Origin: Nibricoccus aquaticus
GTDB lineage: Bacteria > Verrucomicrobiota > Verrucomicrobiia > Opitutales > Opitutaceae
Assembly (NCBI RefSeq): GCF_002310495.1
Contig: NZ_CP023344.1
Coordinates: 3,427,501 to 3,491,500, forward strand
Direction: 5' to 3'
Length of the DNA stretch: 64,000 nucleotides
This document shows, one piece after another, positions 6,155 through 49,542 of this stretch (positions within the stretch are counted from its first letter, which is position 1; each line of letters starts with the position of its first letter). The position numbers and the translations under genes are program-made. The notes beneath the pieces were generated by a model. The model made no database searches. It saw only the letters and a program-made list of their open reading frames with translations, and was not told where the DNA came from.

Positions 6155-7048
6155 ATGCGTTTTTCCCGAGTCTGGTTATCGAGCCTGGTGGTGTTGGTAG
6201 CGTTGAGCGCGCCGGCGTGTTCGAAGCGCGGGGAAACGTCGCCGGCGGTGCAGGCGGAGAAACGTTATCCGCTCACAGGTGAGATCCTCGCCGTGGATGC
6301 GGACAAGAATGTGCTGCGGGTGAAGCACGAAAAAATCGAAGGCTACATGCCGGCGATGACGATGGAGTTTCTGGTGTCGCTCGGTGACGCGAAGCTGGCG
6401 AAGGCGGGGCAGCGGATTCGCGCGGAGATGGTGGAGCAGGCGGACGGAGAATTCCGGCTGGAGAAAATCTGGCCGGCGTCGACTGCGGAGGTCGCGAAGA
6501 TCGAGGCGGCGGCGAATGCGCTGACGCAGGAAACGGTGGCGATGGGGCGCGGGGCGTATCGAGAAATCGGGGAGCGGGCACCGCAGTTTTCGTTGTTCGA
6601 TCAGGACGGGCGGGTGGTGGAGAGTCAGCGGTTTCGCGGGAAGCAGGTGATGATTTGTTTTATCTTCACGCGGTGTCCGGTGGCGAAGATGTGTCCGGCG
6701 GCGGTGGCGCGTTTCCAGCAGACGCAGAAGCTGGCGCGCGAGGCGGGGGTGACGGATCTGGAGCTGATCTCGTTCTCGCTCGATCCGGAGTATGACACGC
6801 CGGGGATTTTGAAGGAGTACACGATCCAGCGCGGGATCGACACGAGTAATTATTCGTTTCTCACGGGGCCTCAGATGGCGATCAAGAGCCTGCTGCAGCA
6901 ATTCGGAATTTTGACGGAGATGCAGGGGGATCTGCTCAATCACACGGCGGCGACGTTGTTGCTGGATGGGACAGGGCGGATCATCCACCGGGCGGATGGG
7001 AGCGAGTGGGATGTGCAGGATTTTGTGGGGAGGATGAAGAAGTCGTGA
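6155..7048 (+). CDS. SCO-family protein with N-terminal copper-binding domain
   Basis: Likely a copper chaperone for the CuA centre of the divergently encoded oxidase. The 297-residue product begins with a hydrophobic signal ending in APAC (Cys22, possible lipoprotein). Residues 38-107 look like a CusF/CopK-type copper domain, with His58 and the Met-rich MPAMTM at 65-70. Residues 140-297 are the thioredoxin-fold SCO1/SenC domain. Its two Cys, C174 and C180 in FTRCPVAKMCP, are five residues apart rather than the three of classical SCO (CxxxC). His263 in NHTAATLLL occupies the third copper ligand position. The next gene overlaps it by four bases (GTGA). Confidence 0.88.
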   Translation: MRFSRVWLSSLVVLVALSAPACSKRGETSPAVQAEKRYPLTGEILAVDADKNVLRVKHEKIEGYMPAMTMEFLVSLGDAKLAKAGQRIRAEMVEQADGEFRLEKIWPASTAEVAKIEAAANALTQETVAMGRGAYREIGERAPQFSLFDQDGRVVESQRFRGKQVMICFIFTRCPVAKMCPAAVARFQQTQKLAREAGVTDLELISFSLDPEYDTPGILKEYTIQRGIDTSNYSFLTGPQMAIKSLLQQFGILTEMQGDLLNHTAATLLLDGTGRIIHRADGSEWDVQDFVGRMKKS

Positions 7049-8061
7049 GCGGGCGTGTGAATGATGGTGAAACGACTGCTACGGTTTTGCGGGGTGGGGG
7101 CACCCCGCCTACAGCTCGGCAGTGGAGGCAGATCGCGTTGATCACGGCCGGGGCGGTGGCGTTGTACGCGGGATTTCGCGTGCTGCCGACGGGGACGAAT
7201 TTGAATCACATCGATTTTCGCACGGGCGGAAGTCCGGGGAGCCTGGAGATGTGCGATCCGTCGAATCCGCAGTTCATCCCGGTGATGGCGGTGCGTTCGC
7301 CGGTGAGCATGACGATCGCGACGGAGGGCGCGGCGGCGCAGGCGGGACGGGAAGTGCGTGGAGTCGCGAGACTGGCGACGGCGAGCGGGAAGGCGATCGG
7401 GCCGGTTGATCTCGCGGTGATGCATACGCGCAAGCTGCACCTGCTGGTGGTCGATCCGTCGCTGGGGGATTATCAGCATCTGCATCCGGAGCCGGGGGCG
7501 AAGGATGGGGAGTGGGTTTTTGCGTTCACGCCGAAGAGCGGCGGGCTGTATCGGATTTTTGCGGACTTCACGCCGACGGCGACGGGGCGCGGGCTTTATG
7601 CGGGAGCGGATCTGGAGGTGGCGGCTGCTTCGGGTGAGCGCGACGCGGGTGTGATGGCGACGGTTTTGCGGGGTGTGGGCACCCCGCCTACAACGGAGGC
7701 AGCGGAGGGGATGCGGGTCGTGCGGGACGGGCATGTGTTTGCGTTGAAGGTGGAGGGCGGTGAGTTGCGGGCGGGGGTGGTGGCGGATCTGGCGTTTACG
7801 ATCACGCGGGCGGATGGGGGCGAGGTGGCGTTGGAGCCGGTGATGGATGCGTATGCGCATCTGGTGGCGTTCGACGAGGGGCGGAGCGGGTTCGCGCATT
7901 TGCATCCGAACGAGGGCGATCTTTCGAGGCGGCCGGATGCGAGGGAGCCGCGGCTGACGTTTAAGATCACGATCCCGCAGCGCGGGCGTTATGTGATCTG
8001 GGCGCAGGTGAATCTCGGCGGGGTGGAGCGGTTTGTGCCGTTTCCGGTCGAGGTAAAGTAG
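7045..8061 (+). CDS. Membrane-anchored protein with two HLHP motifs, SCO-linked
   Basis: Unrecognised family. A GTG start at 7045 overlaps the stop of the SCO gene (GTGA) and has a GGGGAGGA site upstream, indicating translational coupling. The 338-residue product has one membrane helix (about 28-45) and then two similar extracytoplasmic domains, each containing a His cluster: QHLHP at 144-148 and AHLHP at 284-288, both followed by a beta-rich stretch (GLYRIFADF, GRYVIWAQV). The His pairs and the neighbour suggest copper handling in oxidase assembly, which is inference. Two near-identical peptides, ATVLRGGGTPPT (12-23) and ATVLRGVGTPPT (205-216), are encoded by copies of a palindromic DNA element. 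Confidence 0.75.
   Translation: MSGRVNDGETTATVLRGGGTPPTARQWRQIALITAGAVALYAGFRVLPTGTNLNHIDFRTGGSPGSLEMCDPSNPQFIPVMAVRSPVSMTIATEGAAAQAGREVRGVARLATASGKAIGPVDLAVMHTRKLHLLVVDPSLGDYQHLHPEPGAKDGEWVFAFTPKSGGLYRIFADFTPTATGRGLYAGADLEVAAASGERDAGVMATVLRGVGTPPTTEAAEGMRVVRDGHVFALKVEGGELRAGVVADLAFTITRADGGEVALEPVMDAYAHLVAFDEGRSGFAHLHPNEGDLSRRPDAREPRLTFKITIPQRGRYVIWAQVNLGGVERFVPFPVEVK
7081..7114 (+). repeat. Palindromic dispersed element, in-frame copy 1
   Basis: The core GCGGGGTG / CACCCCGC is a near-perfect stem (7089-7109) flanked by ACGGTTTT on the left and CTACAG on the right. It lies inside the coding region at 7045-8061, keeps the frame and encodes ATVLRGGGTPPT. Its closest relative is the copy at 7660. 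Confidence 0.75.
7660..7694 (+). repeat. Palindromic dispersed element, in-frame copy 2
   Basis: Same orientation, flanks and length as the copy at 7081. It has ACGGTTTT, then GCGGGGTG, a short loop, CACCCCGC and CTACA, and again it keeps the frame (ATVLRGVGTPPT). It falls in the linker between the two HLHP domains, where an insertion should be tolerated. A related stem occurs at 33661-33685. Confidence 0.75.
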
Positions 8062-8210
8062 GCGTGGGGACAGCGCGTTTTGCTGGTCAAAAAGCTGTAC
8101 ACTTGGGCGAGGTGGTCAGCGGTGACTTGAATGCAGGGGCGGGCGTGTCGATTTTTTGGGCGTCGTCAGATCCAGCGCGTCACGGGACGGGCGGGACAAA
8201 ACGATACGCC

Positions 8211-8591
8211 ATGGAAAATCTACACTTTGTCTTCGCCGCTTCGCCCGCATTGCCCACCGCCGTTTCGCCTTTGTCGGAAGTGATCGCGTGGAGTTTGTGG
8301 CGCGCGACGCAGGCGAATGTGCGCGATCTGCTCTTCGAGGAATCGGAGCGCGGGCTGTGCGTGAAGCATTTTGTTGAAGAGAAGATCACGTCGCGTTGCT
8401 CGTACGTGGAGGTCGCGTGTTTCCCGCATTTGCGTGGAGCGCCTTTGCACGATCTGCCGTCGAAGGGCGGCGGCACGGCGATCAGTGGCGCGAGCCGCTG
8501 GCGGCTTCGTTTCTGGACGGGGCAGAAGAGCGAGAATGGTCCAGCTCCGGCGTGTACGCTGGTGCAGCTGGTGCCGTTTGCGGAAGTGTGA
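8211..8591 (+). CDS. Hypothetical protein
   Basis: A 126-residue open frame from an ATG at 8211 (MENLHFVFAA). Codon use matches neighbouring genes, with mostly G or C at third positions. The sequence has no signal peptide, membrane helix or motif I recognise; it holds scattered Cys and Trp residues. The opposite strand is also open over much of this stretch (8180-8788) but reads as low-complexity Arg/Ser/Pro protein, so I prefer this strand. It starts about 150 bases after the HLHP-protein gene and may not belong to that operon. Confidence 0.5.
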   Translation: MENLHFVFAASPALPTAVSPLSEVIAWSLWRATQANVRDLLFEESERGLCVKHFVEEKITSRCSYVEVACFPHLRGAPLHDLPSKGGGTAISGASRWRLRFWTGQKSENGPAPACTLVQLVPFAEV

Positions 8592-33584: not shown

Positions 33585-33630
33585 CGCTGAGCGCGTACGG
33601 AGGAAGATGTGGGGAAAAAACGGACGGCGG

Positions 33631-33690
33631 CGCACGGCGTGCGCGCCCTACAGGGGCGGTGCGGGGTGGGTGCACCCCGCCTACAGCGTT
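33631..33690. repeat. Two adjacent palindromic elements at the end of the DRTGG gene
   Basis: The first is GCGCACGGCGTGCGC followed by GCCCTACAGG. The second is GCGGGGTGGGTGCACCCCGC followed by CTACAG (33661-33686), the same family as the in-gene copies at 7081 and 7660. The minus-strand stop codon of the gene at 33681 (TAG) is the conserved TGTAG edge of this element. Confidence 0.7.
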
Positions 33691-42808: not shown

Positions 42809-44389
42809 ATGGGCGCCGTGAGAACTGCGGGAGTGTCGAAAAATCTGAAGAACATCAGCGTAGTGGCGTCGTTGACTATGGTGTCGCGTGTGCTCGGGCT
42901 GATCCGGGATATTTTGAGCGCCAACATTCTTGGCGGCGGAGTTTTCAATTCCGCTTTTGTGACGGCATATAATTTGCCCAATCTGTTTCGGCGATTGCTC
43001 GGCGAGGGTGCATTGTCGGCGGCGTTTGTGCCGACCTTGCACGCGGAATTGCGAGAACGGGGCAAGGAAGGGGCATTTGCGTTGCTCAACAATGTGGTGA
43101 GCTGGGTCGCGGTGACAACGAGCGTGCTGGTCGTGGTGACGATGTCGGTATGCAGTCAATCGCGGCACATCACGGGGCAGGATCCCAAGTGGTATCTGAT
43201 GGCTGATCTGACGGTGATTTTGTTTCCGTACATGGCGTTTGTGTGCGTGGCGGCGGCGTTGAACGCGGCGCTTAACGTGATGGATCGCTTCACGGAGCCG
43301 GCGCTTTCACCAATCTGGTTGAATCTTGCGATGATCGCTTCACTGGGGGGCGCGGCATGGCGGTGGAGCGAATCCGATCTGGGGCAGGTTTACTGGCTGT
43401 GCGGCGGTGTGCTGGTGGGCGGGCTGCTACAGATGATTTCACCGACGATCGTCTTGATGCGGGAAGGCTGGCGGCCGCGTTTCGATCTGAGCATCTCGTC
43501 CGGCGTGCGCGAGATCACGAGGCTGATGGCACCGGAGCTGTTTGGCGTAGCGATTTATCAGATCAATATCTTCGTCTCGCGGCAGCTCTCGTTTTCCATC
43601 GATGAATCTTCGGCGTCGGTTTTTTTCTATGCGAATCGCCTGATGGAACTGCCGATCGGTGTCTTCGCGATCGCGGTTTCGACGGTCGTGTACCCGTTGA
43701 TTTCGCGGCATGCCGTTGAGGGGAAATTCGCAGAGATGGCGGATGATTTTCGCAAAGGATTGCGGTTGATTTTGCTCATAAACATTCCGGCCGCGGTGGG
43801 GCTGGCGTTGCTGGCGGAGCCGATCATCCGGCTGTTGTTCGAGCATGGGAGATTCACAGCCGAGAACACGCGGGCGATGGTGCCGCTGCTGCAATTGTTC
43901 ATGGTGGCGATGCCGTTTTTCTCGGTGGTGAGCATGTCCACGCGAGGATTCTACGCGCTGCGGGAAACCAAGACGCCGGTGCGGATCGCAGCGGTGAGTT
44001 TTGTAGTAAACATCATTCTGAGCCTCACGCTGAAGGATCGTCTCGGGACGAGCGGACTGGTGCTGGCGAGCACCGTGGCGATTGTTTTGCAGACGGTTTT
44101 GCTGCAACGGGCGCTGACGCTCCGGCTGCCGGGGATGAATTTCGCACCGCTCTGGAAAACAGTGGGCAAGATCGTGCTCGCGGCGTTGGGACTGTTTATT
44201 GTCGTCGGTGGCTGCTGGTGGCTATTGCGGCGTGAAATGCCGGGATCTCCGGTTGCAGATTTGATTGCCGTCTGCGGACTGATTCCGGTGGGCGCGGGTA
44301 TTTATATGGTCTTGGTGATGATGCTCCGGATTGAAGGGCGAGAGGAGATTGCAGATCTGGTGCTGCGCAAGATTCGGAAGAAGGCATGA
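42809..44389 (+). CDS. murJ: Lipid II flippase MurJ (MviN)
   Basis: A 526-residue polytopic protein (about 14 helices) of the MOP exporter superfamily, flipping lipid II for peptidoglycan synthesis. The N-terminus SVVASLTMVSRVLGLIRDIL and NLPNLFRRLLGEGALSAAFVP are hallmark MurJ sequences. The start at 42809 has a TAAGGA site; longer upstream frames overlap the kinase gene end and are rejected. It lies 70 bases after the kinase gene on the same strand and 24 bases before a symporter gene. Confidence 0.95.
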   Translation: MGAVRTAGVSKNLKNISVVASLTMVSRVLGLIRDILSANILGGGVFNSAFVTAYNLPNLFRRLLGEGALSAAFVPTLHAELRERGKEGAFALLNNVVSWVAVTTSVLVVVTMSVCSQSRHITGQDPKWYLMADLTVILFPYMAFVCVAAALNAALNVMDRFTEPALSPIWLNLAMIASLGGAAWRWSESDLGQVYWLCGGVLVGGLLQMISPTIVLMREGWRPRFDLSISSGVREITRLMAPELFGVAIYQINIFVSRQLSFSIDESSASVFFYANRLMELPIGVFAIAVSTVVYPLISRHAVEGKFAEMADDFRKGLRLILLINIPAAVGLALLAEPIIRLLFEHGRFTAENTRAMVPLLQLFMVAMPFFSVVSMSTRGFYALRETKTPVRIAAVSFVVNIILSLTLKDRLGTSGLVLASTVAIVLQTVLLQRALTLRLPGMNFAPLWKTVGKIVLAALGLFIVVGGCWWLLRREMPGSPVADLIAVCGLIPVGAGIYMVLVMMLRIEGREEIADLVLRKIRKKA

Positions 44390-44413
44390 GAATGGCTGAG
44401 AACGTGTGATCCC

Positions 44414-45382
44414 ATGAAGTTTAAATTTGATTGGTTTCTCTGGGGCATGGTGGTCGCGGTGGCGCTCGCGTGGTTGATTCCCGGGCCGGGTGCGCATGGC
44501 GGGTGGTTGCATCCGGAGCTGCTCAACAAGGCGGGCGTGGCGGTGATTTTTTTTCTGAGCGGCGTGTCGCTGTCGTTTGCGGCGATGAAGGCGGGGGCTT
44601 TGCGGTGGCCGGTGCATGTGGTGGTGCAGACGACGACGTTTTTGATTTTTCCGTTGGTCGGGGTGGCGTTGCTGTGGCTGACTGATCGGTGGATTTCGCC
44701 GGAGCTGAACGTAGGCTTTTTCTTTTTGTGCGCGTTGCCGTCGACGGTGTCGTCGTCGGTCGCGATGACGGCGGCGGCACGGGGCAATGTGCCGGTGGCG
44801 GTTTTTAATGCGACGCTCTCGAGCCTGATCGGCGTGATCGTGACGCCGTTATGGATCAGCTGGCGGCTGCACACGGAGGGCGGTGGCGTGGATCTGGGGA
44901 AAGTTATCCTGGATCTGATGCTCTGGCTCGTGCTGCCCTTGGTGCTTGGGCAGCTGGCGCGGCCGTGGCTGGCGGAGTGGGCGAAGCGCAACAAGAAGTT
45001 CATCCATGTGGTGGATCGCGGGACGATCCTGCTGATCATCTACACGTCGTTCTGCGATTCGATCGCGCGCGGCGTTTGGTCGGGGCAGGGGCTGAGCGTG
45101 GTGGCGATCGCGGTCGTGGGATCGCTGATACTGTTTTTCGTGGTGCTGTGGATCGTGGAGGCGATCGCGAAGATGGCGGGGTTCAACGTGGAGGACCGGA
45201 TCGCGACGGTGTTTTGCGGATCGAAGAAGACGATCGCGTCGGGTGTGCCGATGGCGCAGCTGATCTTCGCGGCGGATCCGCGGCTCGGGGTGATTTTGCT
45301 GCCGTTGATGATCTATCATCCGCTGCAACTGGTGATCTGCGGTGTGCTGGCGGGGCGGTGGGCGAAGCGGCCGGGGGTGTGA
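44414..45382 (+). CDS. Bile acid:sodium symporter family protein (SBF-like)
   Basis: A 322-residue membrane protein with about ten helices. The motifs VIFFLSGVSLSFAAMKAGA, ALPSTVSSSVAMTAAARGN (crossing region) and VFCGSKKTIASGVPMAQLIF match the SBF-like branch of the BASS family. It is probably a Na+-coupled organic anion transporter; the true substrate is unknown. It begins 24 bases after murJ and may be cotranscribed with it. Confidence 0.9.
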   Translation: MKFKFDWFLWGMVVAVALAWLIPGPGAHGGWLHPELLNKAGVAVIFFLSGVSLSFAAMKAGALRWPVHVVVQTTTFLIFPLVGVALLWLTDRWISPELNVGFFFLCALPSTVSSSVAMTAAARGNVPVAVFNATLSSLIGVIVTPLWISWRLHTEGGGVDLGKVILDLMLWLVLPLVLGQLARPWLAEWAKRNKKFIHVVDRGTILLIIYTSFCDSIARGVWSGQGLSVVAIAVVGSLILFFVVLWIVEAIAKMAGFNVEDRIATVFCGSKKTIASGVPMAQLIFAADPRLGVILLPLMIYHPLQLVICGVLAGRWAKRPGV

Positions 45383-45451
45383 AGGGCGGTGGTAGAGCGG
45401 AGCGCCAAGAGCGCGGTTGAAGTTTCGTGACGGACGTTTCCTGATCGCGCC

Positions 45452-46105
45452 ATGTCCGATGCGTTGTCTCCCGAATCACTGGTCGCGGCTCTCAACTGGC
45501 GTTATGCCACGAAGAAATTCGATCCGGTGAAGAAGATCCCGGGCGAGGTCTGGGAGGCGCTGGAGCAGGCGTTGATCCTGGCGCCGTCGTCAATGGGGTT
45601 GCAGCCGTGGAAGTTTTTCGTGGTGACGAATCAGGCGGTGAAGGAGCAGCTGGCGGGAGCTTCGTACAAGCAGAGCCAGATGGCGGATTGCTCACATGCG
45701 GTGGTGTTCGCTGTGCATAAGAACATCGGCGGGGCGCATGTGGAAAAATATCTGGAGCGGGTGTCGGCGGTGAAGGAGGTGACGCGGGAATCGTTGGAAG
45801 GATTTGGGAAGATGATCGCGGGGAATCTGGCGAACGCGGCGAAGGCGGGGCGGCTCGATGCGTGGCAGACGCACCAGATCTACATCGCGCTGGGGCAGTT
45901 CATGACGGCGGCGGCGTTGCTGGGGGTTGATACGTGCCCGATGGAGGGAATCGAGAATGCGCGGTACGATGAGATCCTGGGGCTGAGCGGTGGGGACTAT
46001 GCGACGGTGGTGGCGTGCCCGGCGGGTTACCGGGCGTTTGGGGACAAGTATGCGGCGGTGAAGAAGGTGCGGTTCGAGGCGAAGGATGTGATCGTGCGGG
46101 TGTGA
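45452..46105 (+). CDS. Nitroreductase family NAD(P)H-dependent oxidoreductase
   Basis: A 217-residue flavoprotein of the NfsB-like type. Recognisable parts: ALNWRYATKKFDPVKKIPGE near the start (FMN phosphate Arg), ILAPSSMGLQPWKFFVVT, and DTCPMEGIENARYDEILGL plus VVACPAGYRAFGDKYA near the end. It would reduce nitro compounds or quinones. It lies 69 bases after the symporter gene. I see no dedicated regulator. Confidence 0.92.
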   Translation: MSDALSPESLVAALNWRYATKKFDPVKKIPGEVWEALEQALILAPSSMGLQPWKFFVVTNQAVKEQLAGASYKQSQMADCSHAVVFAVHKNIGGAHVEKYLERVSAVKEVTRESLEGFGKMIAGNLANAAKAGRLDAWQTHQIYIALGQFMTAAALLGVDTCPMEGIENARYDEILGLSGGDYATVVACPAGYRAFGDKYAAVKKVRFEAKDVIVRV

Positions 46106-46385
46106 GGCAGGGTCGGAGGAGTCGCTGGGAAGCCAGGAAAGGCTGGCGGCGAGGGAGATTTTAGGAAAAAGGCAGGGTTATACGCGGCATGAAAGCGAGA
46201 GCAGCTGCTTGGGGGAGAGTGGTTAGTGAAGATGTTGGGCGAGGGCGGAGATGAGGAGCGCGAAGTTTTTCAATGAAATGCGACTGAATCTCGATTTCGG
46301 TCTTTTCAAGGCAAGGAAAGGTGGTTGTGTGTGTGGCGAACTCGCAGACCGGCAGGCGTCGGTCGGCACCAAAACTGAACTCACC
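46106..46385 (+). other. Leader region of the TonB-type gene
   Basis: 280 bases with no supported gene, although the TonB-family reading frame stays open upstream to 46251 without a good start. A weak dyad GAAAT...ATTTC (46275-46298) is too degenerate to call an iron box. No terminator is visible after the nitroreductase gene. Confidence 0.3.
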
Positions 46386-47219
46386 ATGAACGTCGCAGAA
46401 ACGAGCTTAAGCGCACCGCAGGCGGGCGTGCGCCGGAAGCAGTCCAGCAGGACGACGGGTGCCGAGGCGCGTTTTTTTTGGGCGAAGATTGAGACTGAGT
46501 CTGAGGTTCGCGGCACGTGGAAATATCCGGAGGTGAAGGCGGACAAGGTGGGTATGTGGGTAGCGCTGGGCATCGCGGTGGCGGCGCACGCGATTTTTTT
46601 CTTTGGCTTTGGGAAATCGAAACCGGTGGCGGCAGTGGTCGCGCCGGCGGAGGTGACGGAGGTGGCGTTGTTTGATGTGCCGGTGCCGGAGGAGGAGTTG
46701 GTGGCATCGGATAGCGCGGCTAGTGAGAACACGGAGGCTTCGGCGGGAGTGGATGTGCCGACGCTGCCGGACACGCCGGCGATGGTGAATCTGGGGGATT
46801 TCGTGCAGGCGGTGCAGCTGGGCAACATGCTGCCGCGCGCGGATCTGAGCGGGGCGAGCCTGTCGCAGATCCCGGGAAATTTCCGCAGTGGCGGCGCGGG
46901 AGGTAGCGGGAGCGGTTTTGGCAGTGTCTTCGCGCTCTCGGATCTGGATCGCGCGCCGACGCCGACGTACCGGCCGTTGCCGACGATCCCGCGGCATCTG
47001 CTCACTGCGGCAGCGGGTGTGAGCGTGACGGTGGAGTTTGTGGTTTCCGCCAAGGGTGAGGTGATGAACCCTCGGGTAATCAGCTCGGATAATCAGCGGT
47101 TCGACGATGTGGCGCTCAATGCGGTGAAGCGCTGGAAGTTCAAGCCGGGGTTCCGTCAGGGGCGGACTGTGAACGTGAGCATGAGTCAGGCGATCGACTT
47201 CAAGGTATCGGGAAGTTGA
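46386..47219 (+). CDS. TonB family energy-transducing protein
   Basis: A 277-residue protein. The N-terminal part is cytoplasmic with a membrane helix at about 57-77 (VGMWVALGIAVAAHAIFFFG). A long acidic/Pro linker (80-200) follows, and then the TonB C-terminal domain (about 200-277): VTVEFVVSAKGEVMNPRVIS, NAVKRWKFKPGFRQGRTV. It would couple the proton motive force to outer-membrane receptors. No ExbB/ExbD or receptor genes are adjacent. An AAAACTGAACTCACC leader precedes the ATG at 46386. Confidence 0.88.
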   Translation: MNVAETSLSAPQAGVRRKQSSRTTGAEARFFWAKIETESEVRGTWKYPEVKADKVGMWVALGIAVAAHAIFFFGFGKSKPVAAVVAPAEVTEVALFDVPVPEEELVASDSAASENTEASAGVDVPTLPDTPAMVNLGDFVQAVQLGNMLPRADLSGASLSQIPGNFRSGGAGGSGSGFGSVFALSDLDRAPTPTYRPLPTIPRHLLTAAAGVSVTVEFVVSAKGEVMNPRVISSDNQRFDDVALNAVKRWKFKPGFRQGRTVNVSMSQAIDFKVSGS

Positions 47220-47279
47220 GGACGGCGGCGGGCGGGCGGATTGGCGCGGGCGCGGAGAGGCGGCGGGTGGCTGGGGCGC

Positions 47280-48044
47280 TCAGTATTTTCTCAGGCCGGT
47301 TTTTTCGGCTAGGAGGCGGAGGAGGAAGAGCGGGTTGTTTTTGAAGTAGCGCGAGGCGAGGCGGCGGGGTTCGGTGCAGAGACGGAAGAGCCATTCGAGG
47401 CCAGAGCGTTGCATCCAGCGCGGGGCCTGGCTGACGCGGCCGGAGAGAAAGTCGAAGGCGGCGCCGATGCCGAGCATGACGCCGGCGTCGAGGCGTGGGG
47501 CGAAGGCGGCCATGAATTTTTCCTGCTTGGGGGTGCTGAGGCCGACCCAGAAGAAGGACGGGCGGAGGGCGCGGATTTTCGTTTCGAGGGCGGAGGCTTC
47601 GTCGGGCGTGAGTTCGCGGAAAGGCGGTGTGTGGGTACCTGCGATGCGGAGGCCGGGGAAGCGGGCGGAGAGTTTTTGAGCGAGGGCGTCGGCCGTGCCG
47701 GGGGCGGCGCCATAGAGGAAGTGGGTAAGCTCGGTGCCGGCGGTGGCGGCGCAGACTTCTAGGAGAAGGTCGGGGCCGTACACGCGGGTGATGGCGCGAT
47801 GGCCGGCGCGGCGGCCGAGCCAGACAAGCGGCATGCCGTCGGGTGTGGTGAGGTAGGAGTTATTGAGCGTGGCGAGATGGGCGTGATCGCGGCGGGCGCA
47901 GGAGACGCTGTTGACGTCGCAGAAACACACATATGCGGCGGGCGGGCGTTCGCGGGCGGCGGAGATGACGAGGTCGCGGGCTTGCGCGAGGGAGAGGGCG
48001 CTGACGCGGACGCCTAGGACGGGGTAGCGTTCGGGTAGTGCCAT
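47280..48044 (-). CDS. WecB/TagA/CpsF family glycosyltransferase
   Basis: A 254-residue GT26 enzyme that transfers ManNAc-type sugars to undecaprenyl-linked acceptors in surface polysaccharide synthesis. Sites: NNSYLTTPDGMPLVWLGR (with the catalytic Asp), VYGPDLLLEV, LYGAAPGTADALAQKL and SFFWVGLSTPKQEKFMAA. It is soluble or peripheral to the membrane. It overlaps the end of the ABC permease gene by 31 bases, so it is probably in that operon, which may be an envelope exporter. Other polysaccharide genes are not in view. Confidence 0.92.
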   Translation of the reverse strand: MALPERYPVLGVRVSALSLAQARDLVISAARERPPAAYVCFCDVNSVSCARRDHAHLATLNNSYLTTPDGMPLVWLGRRAGHRAITRVYGPDLLLEVCAATAGTELTHFLYGAAPGTADALAQKLSARFPGLRIAGTHTPPFRELTPDEASALETKIRALRPSFFWVGLSTPKQEKFMAAFAPRLDAGVMLGIGAAFDFLSGRVSQAPRWMQRSGLEWLFRLCTEPRRLASRYFKNNPLFLLRLLAEKTGLRKY

Positions 48045-49542
48045 GACGGGAGTGGTTTTTCGTCAGCGATCTCCTCGATGTGGACGAAGGTGAAGCAGGC
48101 GATGACGCCGAGGGCGGTCGCTCCGAGCAGGAGGATGCCGATGAACCAGAGCGTGCCGTGGGCGACGAGGGAGATGCCACCGGAGGCGCCGATCAGGAGA
48201 ATGCCCACGAGGATGTTGCGGGTGATGGAGGTGCGGCGGCGGTTGCGGTTGAGCAGGTCTTTGCGCGGTGTGGGGGAGATGCGGGCGACGGAGAGCCAGG
48301 CGCAGCCGGAGGCGGTGACGGCGCCGGTGATGAAGGCGAGCAAGGCGAGCCACGGGCGGCCGAAGGCGGCGATAACGAGGCAGAGGATGAGCGAGGCGGC
48401 GAGCGGGAGAGCCATGCCGGCGGCCATTTTGGCGAGGCGGAGGCGGGTCTCAGGCGAAGGGCTCATGCGGATGAGATCGAGACAATCCTCGCCGGTGGCG
48501 GCGACGTCGGCGAGCAAGGTGGAGAACTGGACGGCGATGACGACTGCGACAGGGGCGAGGATGACGGTGCCGCCGAACTGGCGGAAGGCGAGGAACGCGG
48601 GGAGAATGTACATGAGCGACGGGAGCGTCTGCGAAAGCAGGAGCGGGTCGCGGACGATGAGGCGTAGGTCTTTGAAGAAGGTGGCGCGGGCGAGGCCCTG
48701 GGAGAAGCGGTAGGTTTTGCCGCCGGTGCGGGGTGCGCGGGAGGGTTTCACGCCGGATTCCTGGAGGCCGGTGAGGAAGGTTTTGGCGAGCTGGCGGGCG
48801 GTGAGGAAGGCGATGAGCGCGGTGACGGAGGCGAGGATGAGAAGCTCGGAAGGTTCACCGCGGCCGGAGCGGGCGAGGTGGGAGAAGCCGAGCCAGTCGG
48901 CGGTGGTGCGGAGGGCGGACCAGAAGGCGATTTTGTCGGCGCGGGGGAAGTAGTTCTGAATTTGAAACGTGAGGTAAACTGACGCGCCGAGGAAGGCGGC
49001 GAGGATTTGAATCCAGACGCGGGCGCGGCGGGTGCCGAGAAGACGGACGAGGGCGAGGGTGAGCCAGACACCGGCGCAGGCGGCGATAATGGAGAGGGAA
49101 ATCCAAGTGACGTATCCGAAAAGGTACATCGGGGAGAAGCCGATGATCACGCCGTTGAGCAGTGGCAGGAGAAGCAGGCTGGCGCCGATGAACGCGCCGG
49201 TGGACATGACGGCGATGCGGGCGAGGAGGATGGCGCGGGTGCTGACCGGAGAAGAGAGAAGAAGATCGAAGTCGGCGCGCTCGAAGAAGAGGCCGATGGC
49301 TTGGTTCATGGAAGCACCGAGCATGAGGAAACCGAAGAAGGCCCAGAGGCCGGCTTCGAGACCGAGCGGGGGCGTCTGCTGCAGGTGGGTGAAAAGGAGA
49401 ATGCTGATCGCGTGGAGGACCAGCAGTGCGAGGGCGAGGAGGGTGGCGCTAGTGGCGATCTTGAGTTTGCCCGTGCGGAGCTCGCGCCAGAGAAGGCGGA
49501 GGTCGTTGCGCAGGATCAGGCGGGTTTGTCTGAGCAACGCGC

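Follow-up and report, generated by a model that had tools for sequence, protein, structure and literature searches.

We take Opitutus terrae to be a member of the same bacterial family as Nibricoccus aquaticus, the genome studied here. Intragenic GTAG REPs were published in 2013, and O. terrae has the highest number of them according to the examined part of that paper (Di Nocera et al. 2013, PMC3733652); its REPs are described there as bearing a GTAG or GTGG tag, as occurring in single, paired and intragenic copies, as being carried by genes for uvrA, DNA ligase and RNA helicase, and as supplying TAG stops. We saw much the same: a REP is carried by uvrA in one relative (G112) and by a helicase gene in G000, and a REP supplies a TAG stop in the DNA analyzed below. 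By its description, GTAG-20 of O. terrae (mostly GTGG) is a candidate for the same family. The choice of reading phase and the orientation by replichore were found here and do not occur in the examined text of PMC3733652.

For the REPIN/RAYT system of Pseudomonas fluorescens SBW25, singlets are read as remnants of doublets in the part of the source consulted (Bertels and Rainey 2011, PMC3116915). Inverted doublets and REP-flanked RAYTs occur in our material too; unlike in SBW25, copies are mostly singlets, a sizeable share is intragenic, and a matching RAYT was not found in the genome. Rickettsia palindromic elements (RPEs) are palindromic repeats lying in frame in unrelated genes, as far as the consulted parts of two papers go (PMC10969869, PMC3733652), with a length of about 150 bp in one (PMC10969869) and a CGTC tag in the other (PMC3733652). 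The REP described here also inserts in frame into unrelated protein genes; it works like an RPE in its manner of insertion, and we do not class it as one. A literature search found no same-frame rule in Rickettsia. As for the single-strand transposition of IS200/IS605, the likeness is a weak match of the RAYTs to the IS200/IS605 model; unlike IS200/IS605, this REP has no autonomous element that a RAYT-clade profile search of this genome could find. That selfish DNA can add peptides to proteins as translated mobile hairpins is known, though little studied; our analysis contributes this REP family and its RAYT clade, a preference in reading phase, a rule of orientation and recurrent copies at the same sites.

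The window, a stretch of 64 000 nt within the 4.73-Mb single contig of the genome, contains a gene whose GTG start overlaps the stop of the SCO gene and whose reading frame is open (Table 1). Two copies of a 35-nt unit, differing at 2 positions, lie in this gene in the same orientation and in frame; 100 dinucleotide shuffles of the window gave 0 matches to the unit. Each unit sits in an in-frame stretch of 36 nt, coding for 12 residues. The initial annotation had placed two near-identical elements of about 34 nt at 7081 and 7660; their likeness, frame and orientation were borne out, while the size and the starting positions had to be corrected.

Table 1. Positions of the host gene, its repeats and a further REP in the window
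Feature	Position	Strand	Description
Host gene	7045..8061	+	338 aa; a predicted TM-like helix at 24-46, and two beta-sandwich domains with a linker between them
Repeat unit, copy 1	7079..7113	+	Inside in-frame stretch 7078-7113, residues 12-23 = ATVLRGGGTPPT
8-nt flank ACGGTTTT	7081..7088 (second at 7660-7667)	+	Upstream of both elements
REP copy 1	7089..7112	-	GTAG + GCGGGGTG-CCCC-CACCCCGC; GTAG at 7109-7112
Repeat unit, copy 2	7658..7692	+	Inside in-frame stretch 7657-7692, residues 205-216 = ATVLRGVGTPPT
REP copy 2	7668..7691	-	GTAG + GCGGGGTG-CCCA-CACCCCGC; GTAG at 7688-7691
Third REP of the family	33661..33684	-	Provides the TAG stop codon of a minus-strand gene that ends there

The element proper takes up 24 nt of the minus strand: a GTAG tag, an 8-bp stem and a 4-nt loop. 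A stem had been noticed in each copy from the outset; it is predicted on both strands of both (-16.3 to -17.4 kcal/mol, z -1.9 to -2.8), with 3 to 13 of 200 shuffles being as stable as the window copies. The GTAG stands directly before the palindrome, as in REPs of the GTAG type, where this tag or one much like it immediately precedes a palindrome of 20-40 nt. A REPIN consists of two inverted REPs in one hairpin; the window copies are single direct repeats 579 nt apart, and of the suggested ‘REP/REPIN-like’ character only the first half applies. We consider it probable (roughly 0.85) that each repeat is a single GTAG-type REP, with a core of 24 nt, which entered the gene by insertion and is now translated along with it. 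Next to the third REP lies a GTAG palindrome of another type (33629-33651; minus-strand sequence GTAGGGCGCGCACGCCGTGCGCC).

Since the 8-nt flank was absent from every other copy compared, being common to the two window copies only, we think that one window copy was probably derived from the other, or both from one source. The 16-nt string ACGGTTTTGCGGGGTG was present in 3 of 319 loci, all three being the place in the host gene itself; in a comparison of flanks in 1891 pairs, two other pairs had 8 nt in common, both of TAACGCC type. The host gene would have received one insertion in the tail before the TM helix, with the linker copy probably derived from it or from the same source. The predicted N-terminus of the protein assumes the GTG start; translation could instead begin at an in-frame TTG within the unit (7087), with most of peptide 1 retained.

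No family of NCBIfam or Pfam matched the host protein at the thresholds used. An AlphaFold model made from 25 sequences (mean pLDDT 81) showed two sets of strands besides the helix (24-46). For residues 201-220, pLDDT was <50, and blocks 1-10 and 11-20 averaged 51 and 55 (∼53 for residues 1-20); both peptides fall mostly within these low-confidence parts of the model, which we take as flexible. A fold search returned generic tandem beta-sandwich matches only, with TM-scores of 0.18-0.24 by query among the 50 listed; therefore we claim no function for the protein. A promoter and terminator scan of 6900-8300 gave nothing above shuffles.

Further copies were abundant in the genome. The pattern GCGGGGTGNNNGCACCCCGCCTAC had 41 matches at ≤2 mismatches (26 exact, 9 with one, 6 with two), and its backward reading had 0 in the same genome; a sister family, mostly GGAG-GCGCGGTGCCCTCACCGCGC, in which a stem pair is compensated, had 19 matches at ≤1 mismatch. 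These 41 + 19 copies are dispersed and mostly intergenic, often near gene 3′-ends. With both families taken at ≤5 mismatches, at least 68 copies were present in the stretches examined (copies elsewhere in the genome are outside this count), and 12 of 66 copies were inside predicted genes. Alignment of 62 copies (≤3 mismatches) showed TTCCGAT to be conserved just before the tag, with little conservation past the stem, where some copies have a TTAACG-like remnant. Inverted pairs exist as well, for example at 2277797/2277846 in the genome and in L221 of the relative G023. Across the family, the element at ≤1 mismatch was found in 28 of 150 genomes (own included) and in 15 of 49 genera, with a maximum of 90 matches in G023. 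A third stem variant, GGAGGCGCGACGCCCTCGTCGCGC, has two identical copies, at genome positions 295973 and 3018658; the latter is inside a DUF3418 gene, 207 nt from another REP.

Three RAYTs of the genome scored above the NCBIfam cut-off. Their loci (L031, L032 and L033, at genome positions 425827, 2305928 and 2828279) each have a different GTAG-containing palindrome on both sides; further REP families, not included in our counts, do exist in this genome. The REP of the host gene was absent from all three loci. Among 14 REP-rich relatives, 13 had RAYT matches, 12 of them above cut-off, for a total of 73 matches; in the 30 loci that were read, this REP was present on both sides of the RAYT in four (L196, L199, L202, L211) and on one side in L194 and, weakly, L191. 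In a RAYT tree, the four doubly flanked RAYTs fell into one clade (support 0.97), together with that of L194 and two without REP flank (L195, L217); genomes of the REP-flanked clade are G112, G036, G048 and G140, and the three RAYTs of our genome were outside. A profile of the clade, run against our genome, found only these three other RAYTs (65, 64 and 44 bits).

Because no RAYT of the flanked clade was found in the genome, movement there either belongs to the past or took place in trans; the REPs of this genome look like orphans now, going by RAYT sequences. The initial annotation had proposed recent insertion of a mobile type rather than protein repeats, and had asked for a RAYT gene elsewhere in the genome. 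Mobility agrees with the ∼60 copies and with the REP-flanked RAYTs of relatives; for want of a clade RAYT, no movement in this genome itself, of whatever age, was observed. RAYTs were indeed present, none of them from the clade that this REP flanks in relatives. We infer that a RAYT of the G112/G036/G048/G140 clade mobilized the element as single-stranded DNA.

In stretches from six genomes, 35 of 194 REPs were inside predicted genes, and these in-gene copies prefer one reading phase per direction: the numbers in phases 0/1/2 were 20/0/2 for forward and 0/2/11 for reverse copies. When pairs and tandems were merged by locus (by hand, with two doubtful gene-start cases dropped: L238, phase 0, and L294, phase 2), forward copies had 17 loci in phase 0, 0 in phase 1 and 1 in phase 2 (L291), p = 1.5e-5; reverse copies were distributed 11 versus 2 (p = 0.02), or 8 versus 1 with REPIN partners removed (p = 0.04). 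The p-values are binomial, against equal use of the two phases that are open for the common sequence, with L291 outside the first test. The relatives contributed 26 of 41 matches (G048), 24 of 90 (G023), 19 of 22 (G049), 16 of 20 (G112) and 14 of 15 (G027). The same phases were used by REPs at the N-termini of host-gene orthologues (L079, L115, L139, L221), which stand outside the counts. These counts are small and depend on gene calls from a two-class codon model in which exact starts are not given; the model clipped the start of the window gene, and the REPIN of G023 (L221) was absent from its in-gene set. A gene finder with one codon class was dropped: the SCO gene escaped it, and its calls were almost all on the C-rich strand.

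The favored readings are rich in Gly and Pro (VGGVPSPR forward, RGEGTPPT reverse); other phases read like RRGALTP or GVRAPRLH. The phase bias could stem from target choice rather than from selection on the peptide, if the transposase picked targets with codon periodicity. Codon composition is periodic, and the target specificity of this RAYT may follow it; however, TTCCGAT before the tag is also there at intergenic copies and, because of this, is a part of the element and not a coding target, and both directions converge on Gly/Pro-rich readings though their phases differ. We hold target choice to be a serious competitor and still rather unlikely. On our reading, the insertions that persist inside genes would be those whose added length is a multiple of three, at a flexible site, in the Gly/Pro-rich phase rather than in more Arg-rich ones. 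The peptides most likely act as inert spacers. The initial idea of ‘peptide-coding modules’ describes the elements well in that other conserved genes contain in-frame peptides of the same kind; a selected function does not follow, as we saw only tolerance and a preferred phase.

Orientation of the copies was compared with GC skew. In the sampled stretches the skew has one sign change close to 2.28 Mb and another somewhere from 4.33 to 4.72 Mb, and a single stretch, at 1.88 Mb, goes against this pattern. The asymmetry is very pronounced, in most stretches around -0.3 on one side and +0.27 on the other, and the genes form two codon classes by G or C in the third position. A search for 16S rRNA in this genome gave no match, and RpL2 together with GC skew was used for the direction of replication; genes such as RpL2 generally run with the replication fork, and the minus-strand position of RpL2, at 1279280, is what an origin near 2.28 Mb would lead one to expect. 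The REP orientation follows the replichore, or the local strand asymmetry. Assigned by position (with boundaries of 2.282 and 4.5 Mb, set after viewing copies and skew), 59 loci at ≤3 mismatches included 55 with the tag on the C-rich strand, 2 contrary ones (295067, 4020354) and 2 inverted pairs; by local skew of the surrounding 3 kb, which needs no boundary, 55 of 57 agreed, with 1878602 and 4020354 contrary. For the 57 single-orientation loci, p = 2e-14 by either measure. The comparison was extended to another genus: in G048, where many copies are clustered, 33 of 35 agreed with local skew, the two exceptions being next to a RAYT or having 4 mismatches. The 5 single copies of G112 all agreed, pairs being neutral. 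A literature search over the starts of abstracts found no earlier report of REP orientation by replichore.

One could argue that a neighboring gene sets the orientation, with REPs past stop codons being kept as RNA hairpins and the replichore rule being secondary. Many copies do begin tens of bases past a stop codon on the GTAG strand, and for 47 of 62 that strand bears a gene or, no more than 200 nt away, the end of one; nearby predicted coding DNA is tilted to the GTAG strand in one replichore (54 versus 30 kb), the tilt being hardly present in the other (63 versus 57 kb), and copy 295067, an exception by position, follows a same-strand gene at a distance of 15 nt. On the other side, 13 of the 15 copies with no nearby gene on the GTAG strand follow the replichore by position, the other two being an arm of an inverted pair and 4020354; 11 of these 13 are beside or inside an opposite-strand gene, and both window copies run against their gene. 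We find it unlikely that neighboring genes explain the rule. On our reading, insertion would have taken place at replication forks with a fixed polarity, from which the orientation rule would result; many insertions survive just past stop codons. If true more widely, this rule would be a genome-scale trace of single-strand, fork-coupled REP movement. One could speculate further that the element's sequence is shaped for harmless translation, with a Gly/Pro-rich spacer phase in each direction, and that it spreads in coding and non-coding DNA by fork-coupled single-strand insertion, reseeding the same tolerant sites across genera; we consider this extension doubtful.

The host gene was present in 119 of 150 genomes of the family, own included. 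Orthologues were aligned for 81 loci (52 + 29 from two sets, with some genomes in both, and L125 and L127 partial). The variable stretches of the alignment are the N-terminus before the TM helix and the linker, which are the mostly low-pLDDT stretches holding the peptides; these sites had been proposed as tolerant to insertion. The N-terminus contains a REP or REPIN in four other genomes: a single GGAG REP reading RGGGTPPP in L139/G108, a whole, decayed REPIN in L079, a REP in the opposite direction followed by a second, different palindrome in L115, and a whole REPIN reading VGGVPPPR...RGEGTPPT in L221/G023. The last locus is one of 14 regions picked because nearly all their genomes carry this REP; the N-terminus in the other 13 had no REP. 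These N-terminal REPs may be separate insertions or old common ones. No clear REP was seen in the linker of orthologues; a weak REP-like stretch in the linker of L094/L136, with 3 edits and no proper loop, was taken as chance.

We also considered whether copies inside genes serve adaptively, as linker modules to the benefit of the host protein. REPs are found repeatedly at matching places of given genes across genera, and 2 of the 4 REP loci in 458 kb fall in an N-terminal zone of 8.8 kb (49 orthologues; Fisher p = 0.002), a zone that was defined after the matches had been seen, with one of the outside loci being a weak match and with 49 of 52 loci used (L113, L125 and L127 left out). However, the sites are variable or low-confidence stretches, as neutral tolerance also predicts, and most orthologues do without the insertions; we judge an adaptive role to be improbable. 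That the two peptides are an internal protein repeat kept for function, with the likeness to REPs secondary, would agree with their same frame, same orientation and common 8-nt flank, one copy probably coming from the other, but is very improbable given that the genome has ∼60 copies in other places, mostly outside of predicted genes, and that neither exact 12-residue peptide was present in any of the 81 orthologue loci. Insertion of REPs is the reading that we retain; neither outcome that the initial annotation had named as speaking against it, the same peptides in orthologues of distant genera or a want of further copies, was found.

Other genes of this genome contain in-frame forward copies: those for a VWA protein (GGAVPSPR), its VWA neighbor (SDVGGVPSPR), a BatD-domain protein (SDGGAVPSPR), a U32 peptidase (SDGGAVPPPR), KdpB (SDVGGVPPPR) and ModA (SDVGGVPSPR). 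The alignment of KdpB to its E. coli counterpart covers residues 13-700 and shows 12 inserted residues at the REP peptide; in ModA, the last 10 residues are the REP peptide, past the end of homologues. Copies in the opposite direction are in genes for HrpB helicase, a DUF3418 protein and one protein with no Pfam match. In the other five genomes, the hosts include DNA polymerase III alpha, RecD2, UvrA, Mfd-like helicase and RsmB, as well as 2-oxoacid dehydrogenase E2, E1-E2 ATPase, YfbK-type and SpoU-type proteins; host names absent from the Pfam answers are presumptive, being our own reading. The aligned place of insertion is the same in two genera each for the BatD protein (G000, G049) and the SpoU-type protein (G048, G112), and some intragenic loci, these two among them, may share ancestry. 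Such copies offer a natural experiment, open to counting, on the acceptance by proteins of a fixed insert of ∼12 residues; the sample is a few dozen in-gene copies in six genomes, with a preferred reading phase and in conserved proteins such as KdpB, DNA polymerase III alpha, UvrA and RecD2.

Three neighboring Bat-type genes at genome positions 43835-49518 (L002, L034, L035) have one in-frame REP each; one of these belongs to the GTAG family, the other two to the GGAG family. In G048, two loci (L243 and L235) have two direct in-frame REP copies in one gene, 75 and 54 nt apart, an arrangement that looks like the window gene in miniature.
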